Positions 15,600 to 31,619 of a stretch of 64,000 nt of DNA are shown here, piece after piece. The DNA lies in NCBI GenBank assembly GCA_013817245.1, contig JACDDA010000002.1, positions 156,252-220,251 of the forward strand, given 5' to 3'. A program made the translations under genes and the position numbers. Source of the stretch: Gammaproteobacteria bacterium. Lineage in GTDB: Bacteria; Pseudomonadota; Gammaproteobacteria; HTCC5015. Numbering within the stretch: the stretch's first letter is position 1; every line of letters begins with the position of its first letter. Below the pieces are notes generated by a model that saw only the letters and a program-made list of their open reading frames with translations, had not been told where the DNA came from and ran no database searches.

Positions 15600-16140
15600 T
15601 ATTAGCCGGTTGCGCACCGGCGGGCGGTTACTTTCTTGTCGCGACAAGAAAGTAACCAAAGAAACGCTCCCCCATGTCTCGCTGCGCGTAAACAAACACG
15701 CGCAGTGCCCTCGTATTGCACGACTTGTAACGGGTCGTCCCGACGCGACGTCCTTGTCGCGGCGGGACTAAAACAAACCTCCTGTTTGTTTTTCCCGACA
15801 AGCCTTGCAACACTTGGCGAGCCATGAGGGGAATGTTCCTTTGTTTAAATTCACGAATGAATAAATATCTTGAGAAGTTAAAAATCTCTTTGTGCTCAAA
15901 CGAAGGGATAATGCCCGTTATGGTGTGCCGAGTGGTGATTAAGGGGTAGCGACACATGAACAGGGATGTTCATGTGAGCCGATCGCAACAGGATGTTGCG
16001 TTGAGGCGGCGCGTCAGCCCTTAAACGCGACGAGGACATGCGTTAATGGAATTCAATTCCATTAACGCACACGGCATACGGGTAAGTATTTTTTGGTGAC
16101 TTTTTGTTACAACAAAAAGTTACTCGCTGTAGTCGCGTAG
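15600..16140. repeat. palindrome-rich intergenic repeat cluster
   Basis: About 540 bases of non-coding DNA holding at least seven inverted repeats: a perfect 32-base palindrome at 15626-15657; 15738-15749 with 15756-15767 (one mismatch); AAAACAAAC/GTTTGTTTT at 15770-15792; CACATGAACA/TGTTCATGTG at 15953-15976; CGCAACA/TGTTGCG at 15984-16000; a 15-base-arm hairpin with one-base loop at 16039-16069; ACTTTTTGTT/AACAAAAAGT at 16099-16120. It is GC-richer than the flanking genes. Open frames in it are low-complexity translations of the repeats. It recalls the repetitive palindromic intergenic elements scattered in gammaproteobacterial genomes; whether it is transcribed is unknown. Confidence 0.7.
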
Positions 16141-26406: not shown

Positions 26407-26670
26407 AAGATCTCTATCTATAATATTTAGTATGGGACGTTATTGAATAACGTTAGAAATGCGGCAGGCTTGGCTTATGACGATACATGCAGAAAACAGG
26501 AAAATTAAAGGGTTTTATCTTTTGATTTGGGTTACTCGCATCCATGAAGAAAATTTTTGAGGCAGTTTACTCGTGCCATTTGTAACCTCGTTGAAATATA
26601 TAGCTGCTTAAAAACAACAACTACTGCATTTATTCGCTTTTTAACCAAGCACTGGTTAATATCCCGCGTC
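26407..26670. other. AT-rich intergenic DNA with two inverted repeats
   Basis: No gene found. Two clean inverted repeats stand out: ACGTTATT/AATAACGT around one base (26437-26453), and TTAACCA/TGGTTAA with loop AGCAC (26641-26659). The latter is 11 bases before the heptamer tract. No T-run follows the second hairpin, so it is not an obvious terminator and may be an operator. Confidence 0.5.
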
Positions 26671-26774
26671 ATTACTCATTACTCATTACTCATTACTCAT
26701 TACTCATTACTCATTACTCATTACTCATTACTCATTACTCATTACTCATTACTCATTACTCATTACTCATTACT
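26671..26774 (+). repeat. 7-bp tandem repeat (ATTACTC) x ~15
   Basis: A perfect head-to-tail array of the heptamer ATTACTC, about 14.9 units over 104 bases with no visible interruption. It ends 45 bases before the ATG of the HAF-repeat autotransporter gene. The unit length is not a multiple of 3 and the tract lies outside the coding sequence, so slippage would change spacing rather than protein sequence. A frame running through it would encode a meaningless ITHYSLL repeat. Confidence 0.95.
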
Positions 26775-26819
26775 GGTAATTTTTACATTGCCACAAAACA
26801 CTATAAAACAGGACAGATC

Positions 26820-28874
26820 ATGAAGTTTCCCATTAAGTCATTCGCACTATCAACAGCCGTTGCACTGTGCTGGGCATTACCGACATTATCCGCTCAAGCG
26901 GCTGATATTCTTACGGGCTTAGGCGATTTGCCGGGCAACAGTTTTTCTAGTATCGCTTATGGCGTCAGCGCGGATGGTTCCGTGGTGGTGGGCAATGGCT
27001 ATAGCACTAGCGGTTTTGAGGCATTCCGTTGGACAGAGGCGGGTGGCATGGAGGGCTTAGGCTATTTAACAGGTGGCAGTTATAGTCAAGCCTCCGACGT
27101 TAGCGCCAATGGTTCGGTCGTGGTGGGCCAAGGCAATAGTGCTAGCGGCACTGAGGCATACCGTTGGTCCCAGGGCGGTGGCATGGTCGGCTTGAGCGAT
27201 TTGGCAGGCGGCGTTTTTGAGAGTTCAGCCAGGGGTGTCAACGCCGATGGTTCGGTGGTGGTGGGCTATGGTACTAGCACAGTGGTAAGGAGGCATTCCG
27301 TTGGACCCAAGGCAGTGGCATGGTTGGCTTGAGCGATTTGGCAGGCGGTGTTTTTGAGAGTTTCGCCGAAGCGGTCAGTGCGAATGGTTCGGTGGTTGTA
27401 GGCTATGGCAGTGGCGTTAGTGGTCAAGAGGCATTCCGCTGGACTCAAGCGGGCGGCATGATCGGCTTAAGCGATTTGCCCGACGGCGGTTTTGGTAGTG
27501 CTGCCTACGCTGTCAACGCCGATGGTTCGGTGGTGGTGGGTGAAGGTTATAGCCTTGACGGCCGAGAGGCATTTCGTTGGACGCAGGCGGGTGGCATGGT
27601 CGGCTTGGGCGATCTGCCAGGTGGCATTTTTAGTAGTACGGCCTGGGGTGTCAACGCCGATGGTTCCGTGGTCGTAGGTGATAGTGTTACCGCTAACGGA
27701 AGTGAGGCCTTCCGCTTGGACCCAAGCGGGGGGCATGCAACGCGTACAAGATTGGTTGGCCGCTGCTGGTGTCAGCGTCGCTGGCTGGACGAAGTTAAAT
27801 GTTGCCACCGATGTGAATGCGAATGGCAATGTGGTGGTGGGGAGGGGAACCAGTACGAACGGTGACGAAGCCTTCATCGCTCGCGTAGGCCCAGCTACTT
27901 CAGGGCTTGTTGGTCTCACCGATCTTAGTAATAGTCTTGCCTCGACCGTCGCAACCCATATGCAGTTCGAAGGGCTTAACGCTCTAACCCTCAACGGCGC
28001 GCACCATCGTACTTTAATGGACATCGCCATGACCGATAGCAATAGCGGTTACTGCGGCTGGGCGAGTGGCGATATAGGCATACTCAATCGCACCGATAAC
28101 GCGCATGGTTGGATGACCTTGGGCGAAGTGGGCGCTTGTCATGATTTCAAGACGCAAAACCTACGTGCCGGTCTCGGCATTGGTCACAGCCAAGCCAGTC
28201 AAGACCAAGTTTATGGCGGTAAAAGCAAGATCAATGGTGAGTATGTTTTAGGCGAACTCGATTGGGCGATTCCTCTTTCGACGTCAGACAGCAGCCTTGT
28301 CGCCTCAGCATTGGGCATGATCGGTCGCTGGGATGCAGACCTTAGACGTGGCTACTCTTTTGGTGCTGTTCAATCGAACGGCAACACTGATCTGGACGCT
28401 TGGTCGCTGCGTGCTCGTCTTGATTGGCGCGATGCGTTTAAGCTCAGTAGCATCAGCTTCACCCCGATCGTTCAATACACCACTACCCAAACCGACGTAG
28501 ATGGCTACCAAGAAAGCGGTGGCACCGCGCCTGCGCGCTTTGATAGCCAAAGCCACACTGCTAAAGAAAGCCGTGTAGGCTTGACCGGTGCTCACCCCAT
28601 GAGCGAAGCCACGACGGTGCGCGGTCATGTGGAATGGGTGCATCGCTTTGACGACCAAGGCGCTACGGTCAGTGGTAACGCCAATGTATTGCAAGTCGTT
28701 GCCCTTCCCTTCAGCTTCGAAGGCAACGAGATCCGTCAGGATTGGGGTCGTGTTGGTGCTGAAGTTGAGCATCAACTCAGCAAAAGCAGTGTGATTCTTG
28801 TATCGGGCAATGTCGCCAGCAAGGGACAAGATGCTGATGCCAGTATTGGCGCGAGCTGGAAGTTGTGGTTCTAA
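26820..28874 (+). pseudogene. HAF-repeat autotransporter, two compensating frameshifts
   Basis: A surface-protein gene with a signal peptide (MKFPIKSFALSTAVALCWALPTLSAQA) and six roughly 45-residue HAF-type repeats (GLGDLPGG...SADGSVVVG...EAFRWTQAGGM). A divergent seventh follows, then an autotransporter-like beta-domain of about 300 residues ending in Phe (SIGASWKLWF). The frame breaks twice. Near 27279-27280 one base is missing (STV VRRH instead of STSGKEAFRW), leading to a stop at 27332. Near 27716 one extra T (CGCTTGG for CGCTGG) returns to the original frame. AGGA at 26810-26813 serves the ATG. Bases appear more GC-rich than in neighbours, hinting at acquisition. It could be a decayed gene or carry two sequencing errors. 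Confidence 0.8.
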
Positions 28875-29913: not shown

Positions 29914-29942
29914 AAAAAAGCCCCAGTGGAGGCTGGGGCTTT
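29914..29942 (-). terminator. intrinsic terminator of the CsrB/RsmZ-like RNA
   Basis: A perfect 10-bp stem AAAGCCCCAG/CTGGGGCTTT (29917-29926 with 29933-29942) with a 6-base loop. It is followed on the minus strand by a run of six T (three within the stem). The T-run exists only on the minus side, which fixes the direction of transcription. Confidence 0.9.
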
Positions 29943-30080
29943 AAATAACCGTCCTGGCTATTTTAGGTGATGTTGAGCATCCTATAGCGTCCTGCTAAGC
30001 TCGTCCTTGGCTTTTGTTCACGTTCCTTCGTGAACCTTCCTTGAACTTCCATGATTTCGTCCCTGACACAGTCCTTGTGT
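29914..30080 (-). ncRNA. CsrB/RsmZ-family regulatory RNA (CsrA/RsmA-sequestering)
   Basis: An approximately 167-nt RNA read on the minus strand. It carries nine GGA motifs, at least three displayed in hairpin loops: ACACA-AGGAC-TGTGT (30066-30080), a perfect 7-bp stem with loop AAGGAA (30016-30035), and TAGC-AGGAC-GCTA (29985-29997) nested in a GAGC/GCTC outer stem. It ends in a strong intrinsic terminator. A promoter (TTGTTA, 17 bases, TTCTAT) and a perfect GacA-type palindrome lie upstream. In the family, each looped GGA binds CsrA/RsmA and the RNA titrates the protein away from mRNAs under GacS/GacA control. No protein frame explains the region. The 5' end is inferred from the promoter and may be off by a few bases. 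Confidence 0.85.
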
Positions 30081-30086
30081 ACGGTC

Positions 30087-30115
30087 ATAGAATGGCACTC
30101 TAAGGTAAATAACAA
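30087..30115 (-). promoter_or_regulatory. sigma70 promoter of the regulatory RNA
   Basis: On the minus strand: -35 TTGTTA (30110-30115), a 17-base spacer, and -10 TTCTAT (30087-30092). This predicts initiation near 30080, directly before the first GGA hairpin. Confidence 0.65.
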
Positions 30116-30138: not shown

Positions 30139-30156
30139 TGTAGGATAAATCCTACA
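30139..30156. promoter_or_regulatory. GacA-type upstream activating sequence
   Basis: TGTAGGATAAATCCTACA is a perfect inverted repeat (TGTAGGA/TCCTACA around TAAA). It fits the GacA box layout TGTAAG-N6-CTTACA with one symmetric substitution. Its centre is about 67 bases upstream of the predicted RNA start, a distance usual for rsm promoters. Confidence 0.8.
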
Positions 30157-30207
30157 AACCCTGCTCCAACTTATTGATTTTATTGAAATTCTAATGAAGG
30201 ATATTTG

Positions 30208-31185
30208 ATGTCACATTTATCATCCCAGCCTGTGACCTTTTATCCGCCAATTGAACCATTTAGTACCGGTCAGTTGCCGGTAGGTGATGGGCATTTATTG
30301 TATTTTGAACAAACAGGTAACCCACAAGGCATTCCCGTTTTGTTCTTGCACGGAGGCCCGGGTGCGGCGTGTGCTGCGTGGCAACGACGATTTTTTGATC
30401 CGCAGTGTTATCACATTATTTTATTTGATCAGCGGGGTTGTGGGCGTTCTCAGCCGCATGCGGAATTGCAGCACAACAGCACGCAACATCTCGTTAACGA
30501 TATTGAATTACTGCGTCAACATTTAAGCATTGCGCAATGGTTGGTGTTTGGTGGTTCATGGGGTTCAACCTTGGCCTTGGTTTACGCACAAACGCATCCG
30601 GCGGCGGTGTTGGGTTTAATTTTGCGCGGTATATTTTTATGTCGCCCTGCTGATATTGATTGGTTTTATCAGTTTGGCGCGTCGGAAATTTGGCCAGATG
30701 AATGGGCGCATTATTTAGCGCCGATTCCAGTGTTAGAGCGTCAGCAAATGGTGGCCGCTTATTATCAGCGATTAATTAGTGATGATGCGGTGATTAAACT
30801 AAACGCGGCAAAAGCATGGTCGCGCTGGGAAGCGGCAACGGCGCGGTTGCAGCAAGATCCACAGTTGTTGAATAACATGACGGCGGATGCCGCCGCCTTA
30901 GCGATGGCGCGTATTGAATGTCATTATTTTATGCAGCAAAGTTTTTTACGGCCGAATCAAATCATCGAAGACATCGCTAACATTCGCCATATTCCCAGTG
31001 TGATTGTGCATGGCCGTTATGATGTGATTTGTCCGCTGCGCCAAGCGTGGGATTTGCATTGTGCTTGGCCCGAAGCGTATTTCCAGATTATTAATACGGC
31101 CGGACATTCAGCGATGGAAGTGGATATTACGCAGGCTTTAATTTTAGCTACGCAACAATTTGCGCGCACCTCAACATTCGTATGA
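30208..31185 (+). CDS. pip: prolyl aminopeptidase
   Basis: A 325-aa cytosolic alpha/beta hydrolase of peptidase family S33 that removes N-terminal proline. Seen: FLHGGPGAACAAWQRRFFDPQCYHIILFDQRGCGRS (oxyanion-hole HGGPG and the family DQRGxGRS), the nucleophile serine in FGGSWGSTLAL, and a late VHGRYDVICPL with the catalytic Asp and TAGHSAMEV with the His. The ATG at 30208 is preferred to a TTG at 30205 because AAGGA at 30197-30201 is 6 bases from it. It overlaps dtd by 4 bases. The GacA box of the divergent RNA lies just upstream. Confidence 0.95.
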   Translation: MSHLSSQPVTFYPPIEPFSTGQLPVGDGHLLYFEQTGNPQGIPVLFLHGGPGAACAAWQRRFFDPQCYHIILFDQRGCGRSQPHAELQHNSTQHLVNDIELLRQHLSIAQWLVFGGSWGSTLALVYAQTHPAAVLGLILRGIFLCRPADIDWFYQFGASEIWPDEWAHYLAPIPVLERQQMVAAYYQRLISDDAVIKLNAAKAWSRWEAATARLQQDPQLLNNMTADAAALAMARIECHYFMQQSFLRPNQIIEDIANIRHIPSVIVHGRYDVICPLRQAWDLHCAWPEAYFQIINTAGHSAMEVDITQALILATQQFARTSTFV

Positions 31186-31619
31186 TTATTTTATTGCAAC
31201 GTGTGAGCCAAGCCGCGGTGGTGGTGGAAGAACAAATCATCGGTCAGATCGGCGCGGGTTTATTGTTGTTATTGGCGGTAGAACCACATGACGGCATCAA
31301 TGAAGTCGTAAAACTGGCAGAGCGCGTGCTGAATTATCGCGTGTTTGCCGATGACGCCGACAAAATGAATTTAAGTGCCCGCGATGTGCAAGCGGAGTTA
31401 CTAGTGGTGTCGCAATTCACCTTGGCCGCTGATACGCGCAAAGGTTTGCGACCGAGTTTTGCGCAGGCCGCTGCGCCTGAGCAAGGTTTATATTACTACG
31501 AGGCGTTTGTGACTGAATTACAGCGCAGTGGTTTGCGCGTGGCCACCGGCCAATTCGGGGCTAATATGCAAGTGAGTTTGATTAATGATGGGCCTGTGAC
31601 TTTTCGGCTGCAGGTTTAG
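31182..31619 (+). CDS. dtd: D-aminoacyl-tRNA deacylase
   Basis: A 145-aa homodimeric editing enzyme that hydrolyses D-aminoacyl-tRNA. It begins with the conserved [15 protein letters not shown], has [21 protein letters not shown] (the SQFTL motif) and closes with [20 protein letters not shown], whose [15 protein letters not shown] includes the cross-subunit NxGPxT-type motif (here NDGPVT). The ATG lies inside the end of pip (4-base overlap), indicating coupling; this pairing is common in gammaproteobacteria. Confidence 0.96.

Follow-up and report, generated by a model that had tools for sequence, protein, structure and literature searches.

Described Csr/Rsm RNAs and the candidate locus

Sequestration of RsmA requires multiple GGA motifs (PMC2375449), and in Shewanella the GGA-rich RNAs located behind a UvrY/GacA box depend on BarA/UvrY (PMC3171408). 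The GacA/UvrY/LetA box has the consensus TGTAAGN6CTTACA (PMC3171408, PMC4682653); it is an 18-nt palindrome bound by UvrY (PMC4682653). E. coli csrB contains 22 GGA motifs and has TGTGAGAGATCTCTTACA upstream, the box being centred at -183/-182 (PMC4682653).

The window (the whole 64-kb stretch of DNA analyzed) contains a candidate small RNA of this kind on its minus strand (Table 1). Judged by the function-defining features that are visible in the sequence, it can be assigned to the CsrB/RsmZ functional class: multiple GGA/ANGGA motifs, a palindromic upstream box, a non-coding stretch with its own terminator, and csrA, gacA/uvrY and gacS/barA in the genome. It resembles the RsmX, RsmY and RsmZ RNAs of Pseudomonas and the LetA-controlled RsmY and RsmZ of Legionella in size class, in several ANGGA motifs, some of them predicted in hairpin loops, in the upstream palindromic GacA/LetA box and the rho-independent terminator, and in the presence of GacS/GacA and CsrA/RsmA in the genome. 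It differs from them in having no significant Rfam match, in its pip-dtd location and in the motif ATCACC before the terminator. With CsrB and CsrC of E. coli and CsrB1 and CsrB2 of Shewanella it shares the GGA array and the 18-nt UvrY box, but it is half as long as E. coli CsrB (369 nt), has fewer GGA motifs and a spacing of about 60 bp between box and array. A sister RNA with 17 GGA in the same genome is nearer to CsrB in size.

Rfam models of CsrB, CsrC, rsmX, RsmY and RsmZ applied to the window gave no gathering-level match at the RNA; at a permissive threshold the best Csr/Rsm model was rsmX, which scored 17.2 bits where 56 are required. The orthologues described below had no Csr/Rsm match in Rfam at E up to 1. 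The earlier note, which had called the RNA a member of the CsrB/RsmZ family and the local Gac/Rsm RNA, and had proposed a covariance-model search with CsrB, RsmY, RsmZ and CsrC as a check, is thus upheld as to functional class (GacA box; csrA, gacA and barA; conserved array) but not as to the CsrB, RsmX, RsmY or RsmZ sequence family, for which no Rfam model reached its threshold at the RNA. The RNA is accordingly regarded as a putative new, unmodelled family of the Csr class, and should not be named RsmZ or CsrB.

Table 1. Positions of the features discussed (window coordinates, except for the sister RNA).
Feature	Position	Strand	Basis and remarks
Putative Csr/Rsm-type small RNA	29914..30088	minus	About 165-175 nt, nine GGA; 5' end placed at ~30080-30090
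GacA/UvrY/LetA-type box TGTAGGATTTATCCTACA, 18-bp palindrome	30139..30156	minus	Predicted upstream activating site; consensus match
Hairpin GTTCACG-AAGGAA-CGTGAAC, 7-bp stem, GGA in loop	30018..30037	minus	MFE fold; GGA unpaired, P ~1.0
Hairpin TAGC-AGGAC-GCTA, GGA in loop	29985..29997	minus	MFE fold; GGA unpaired, P 0.97
Conserved 3' signature CATCACCTAAAATAGCCAGGACGGT, ATCACC and short GGA hairpin	29948..29972	minus	Motif count and model R1
Rho-independent terminator AAAGCCCCAG-CCTCCA-CTGGGGCTTTTTT	29914..29942	minus	Terminator scan (29942-29917) and fold
pip-like alpha/beta hydrolase (proline iminopeptidase)	30205..31185	plus	Pfam Abhydrolase_1; divergent neighbour, syntenic marker
dtd (D-aminoacyl-tRNA deacylase)	31182..31619	plus	Syntenic marker; followed by hisB-hisH-hisA-hisF-hisE
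TwoAYGGAY (RF01731) matches	15700-15829; 15947-16025	minus; plus	One element copy
Sister Csr-type RNA	L037 1501-1915 (G000:C3:188912 onwards)		17 GGA and terminator over ~390 nt behind an identical box

GGA array, fold and extent of the RNA

The RNA is located in a 342-nt intergenic region between a gene for an S24/CI-like regulator (29862-29044) and the pip-like hydrolase gene. All nine of its GGA motifs, the number given by the earlier note for 30080-29914, were recovered by counting between 30074 and 29952, and six of them are ANGGA; the second-best minus-strand stretch of the window has 6 GGA in 165 nt. In dinucleotide-shuffled versions of the intergenic region, 9 GGA in 123 nt were reached in 1/2000 cases, and 6 ANGGA likewise in 1/2000. 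Since 9 GGA were also reached somewhere in approximately 3/200 shuffles of the whole 64 kb, the GGA count alone, judged over a 64-kb search, is suggestive and not decisive.

The absence of a coding frame, also noted earlier, agrees with the ORF list of the window, where no ORF of at least 80 aa overlaps the RNA; a single 50-aa frame crossing it was rejected as a gene, as it is not kept in relatives. The strong minus-strand terminator with a T run was confirmed as a 10-bp stem, whereas the promoter with 17-bp spacing proposed with it found no support, the sigma-70 scan giving no site at its threshold.

The RNA is predicted to fold more stably than its shuffles (z-score -3.06). Three GGA hairpins named in the earlier note are all present in the sequence, and two of them form in the MFE fold with GGA unpaired (Table 1); the one with the 7-bp stem is the best single CsrA site by prediction. 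The third and 5'-most, ACACA-AGGAC-TGTGT, competes with a long-range helix as an alternative structure (GGA unpaired, P 0.44). In the predicted fold, then, two GGA motifs are exposed in stable loops and one more is mostly unpaired, while the others compete with long-range pairing, some being paired in the MFE structure.

GacA-type box, proposed regulatory circuit and sister RNA

The best evidence is the GacA box, which is absent from the earlier reading made from sequence alone. The box is a perfect 18-bp palindrome with the half-sites TGTAGG/CCTACA, and it is the single match to TGTRRGN6CYYACA in 64 kb (0.01 expected). The first GGA of the RNA follows 64 nt downstream of it; the corresponding distance in the three closest orthologues is 57-62 nt. 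Like boxes are located upstream of the sister RNA and of the orthologues.

A search of the genome for csrA/rsmA, gacS/gacA and sister RNAs, as the earlier note had suggested, gave homologues of all three proteins and one sister. The csrA gene, without which that reading could not have stood, adjoins lysC; the GacA/UvrY homologue has 45% identity over nearly its full length, and the BarA/GacS homologue was found at E 2e-99.

At one other place in the same genome (C3:188912) the 18 bases of the box recur unchanged and are followed by the GGA-rich sister RNA (Table 1), for which the Rfam search gave no Csr/Rsm match at E up to 1. A triple of closely spaced ARGGA motifs occurs in the whole 2.27-Mb genome only in this RNA, in its sister and in two simple tandem repeats. 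A third box (C2:269827) was rejected, being located at a gene start without a GGA array.

Synteny and orthologues

The neighbouring genes serve as syntenic markers (Table 1); dtd and the his genes are what we take them to be from their translated sequences and established knowledge of these families. A DNA search of the RNA in 55 relatives returned only a 32-nt piece in one genome (G003), and BLAST against plasmids gave no match. The 32-nt match opened a synteny route to the orthologues. Two genomes from other genera of the family (G003 and G001) and the MAG Gammaproteobacteria bacterium N1D-Bin_17 (L111) have a box, 6 to 15 GGA and a terminator at the corresponding place, divergent from dtd. 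The GGA array therefore recurs in related genomes, which settles the point of conservation on which the earlier note had made its reading depend. Among the named dtd loci (L041-L120) the RNA is found only in L111; weak model matches in L047, L109 and L101 were rejected for want of a box and GGA array. Also rejected was a GGA-pattern match in G001 (L028), which has a repeat-like context without box or terminator.

A class-wide search for TGTAGGN6CCTACA, covering 185 genomes, gave 28 loci beyond the set already known. Several of these have a dense ANGGA array on one side of the box, with at least 5 per 270 nt, a density reached by approximately 2% of background segments in the box loci. Six loci, representing six other families, are linked to pip and/or dtd (L228, L233, L239, L240, L248 and L249). 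In all six, and in a member from yet another family that was found via its pip gene and has a degenerate box (L015), pip adjoins the RNA; in four of the six, ttcA is located on the far side. The arrangement ttcA/trkH - RNA - box - (pip) - dtd - hisB thus looks old from gene order, and in the window only its far neighbour appears to have been replaced. Two further loci, L242 and L243, are doubtful members of the family: a box is present close to dtd, but ANGGA motifs are few and ATCACC is missing.

Units of GacA box and GGA array were also observed in other families with no pip or dtd link in the stretch examined (L236, L244, L247 and L224). None of them has an Rfam Csr/Rsm model match, and they probably represent more unmodelled Csr RNAs.

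The 3' signature and a possible second function

In most members the terminator is closely preceded by (C/A)ATCACC and then a small hairpin, which often resembles GCC-AGGA-GGC and often carries GGA. [ACT]TCACC was found 25-85 nt before the terminator in 9/12 linked loci retrieved via the box (0.48 expected), the exceptions being L228, L242 and L243, and the ATCACC columns are near-invariant in alignment A3. Model R1, built from ten other sequences with the window left out, has its best match of the 64 kb at 29980-29914 (E 1.7e-4, 29.7 bits); L003 of the same family is among the ten, so that independence of the test is incomplete. No covariation is claimed for the 3' hairpin, where the automatic alignment is of poor quality.

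TCACC is absent from E. coli csrB, so that CsrA titration does not require ATCACC. The frequency and near-invariance of the motif could then point to a dual-function RNA, compatible with CsrA titration, in which ATCACC base-pairs with further RNAs or is recognized by some additional factor. AUCACCU is also found at the 3' end of 16S rRNA, so ribosome binding sites of the AGGUGAU type are possible partners for ATCACC. On the other hand, the motif may do no more than stabilize the 3' end, or may persist by descent without any function, and three linked loci do without it; a second function is considered unlikely.

Proposed mechanism

RNA anatomy and the experiments on homologous systems (PMC3171408, PMC4682653, PMC7652899, PMC2375449) argue with high confidence for a small RNA of the CsrB/RsmZ functional class that is activated by GacA and sequesters CsrA/RsmA. 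From the same grounds we infer that its transcription, the binding of GacA and of CsrA, and an effect on targets are very likely. A BarA/GacS-type kinase would phosphorylate the GacA/UvrY homologue, which would then bind the 18-bp box and activate leftward transcription, starting approximately 50-60 bp beyond the box and ending at the terminator (29914). The resulting RNA of about 170 nt could offer as many as nine (A)NGGA sites, with several of these predicted in hairpin loops. CsrA dimers bound by it would be drawn off their target mRNAs, and CsrA control would be relieved. The longer sister RNA, behind the same box, would act in parallel. The further proposal of the earlier note, a global switch for surface and virulence-type traits, is a guess.

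The S24/CI-like regulator is the next same-strand gene downstream and starts about 50 nt past the terminator, so the transcript might be regarded as its 5' leader or attenuator instead of a free-standing RNA. This is very improbable: a strong terminator separates the two, relatives keep the RNA but have trkH or ttcA on that side, and a GGA array behind a GacA box is more readily understood as a titrating RNA than as a leader. A chance combination, in which a purine-rich intergenic stretch with a terminator happens to have a palindrome beside it, might draw support from the nine GGA in 123 nt that also arise in shuffled windows. It is refuted almost beyond doubt by synteny and conservation, since the box with its spacing, the GGA array, the terminator and the 3' signature are found together at one locus across genera and families and model R1, built without the window, ranks the RNA first in the window.

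Dispersed TwoAYGGAY element and other repeats of the window

TwoAYGGAY (RF01731) resembles the titrating RNA in having GGA-loop hairpins predicted, by motif match, to bind CsrA (PMC4333381), and it shares the Rfam clan CL00106 with rsmX. Unlike this RNA, it is a two-hairpin module, which here forms part of dispersed repeats elsewhere in the window; its model gave no match at the RNA and matches the window only at the two places listed in Table 1. These belong to one copy of a dispersed inverted-repeat element (15640-16110) with two divergent TwoAYGGAY modules. The same genome contains 30 matches to RF01731, which fall at about 19 places; divergent pairs account for 11 of these places. None was found in the three family members searched; unrelated gammaproteobacterial families do have matches, and 23/369 genomes of the class carry them.

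Each arm of the element has two hairpins, whose loops (ACARGGAYGT) are close to the CsrA SELEX consensus RUACARGGAUGU (PMC7652899). Compensating stem changes occur between copies, the GGA being constant (CACATG/CATGTG vs CACCTG/CAGGTG; CGCAAC/GTTGCG vs CGCGAT/ATCGCG). The element is possibly a second, mobile CsrA sponge; a literature search gave no publication describing a dispersed repeat that titrates CsrA. A two-level titration of CsrA, by two GacA-controlled RNAs (one pip-dtd-linked and bearing ATCACC) together with approximately 19 dispersed elements of a repeat spread as a sponge, is a speculative and rather improbable extension. If it were true, the presence of ACARGGAYGT hairpins on both strands would provide CsrA sites whichever way a copy of the element is transcribed.

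The window also has an autotransporter gene (26820-28874), whose repeats follow the pattern GLGDLPGGxFxSxAxGVNADGSVVVG, and just upstream of it a short tandem repeat (26557-26823) that translates as HYSLLITHYSLLITHYSLLI. The gene is frameshifted, phase-variable or misassembled, because it is split over three frames (26820-27332, 27320-27865 and 27678-28874).

Significance

Csr/Rsm RNAs stand at the head of global switches, and each lineage has its own, which sequence models miss. In the present case Rfam misses a whole group that synteny and the box easily retrieve. From this follows a simple recipe by which the Csr RNA of little-studied gammaproteobacteria can be located: one looks for a GacA box that is divergent from pip-dtd or dtd, for a GGA array, and for ATCACC before the terminator. 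The conserved 3' motif is a directly testable feature of the family.
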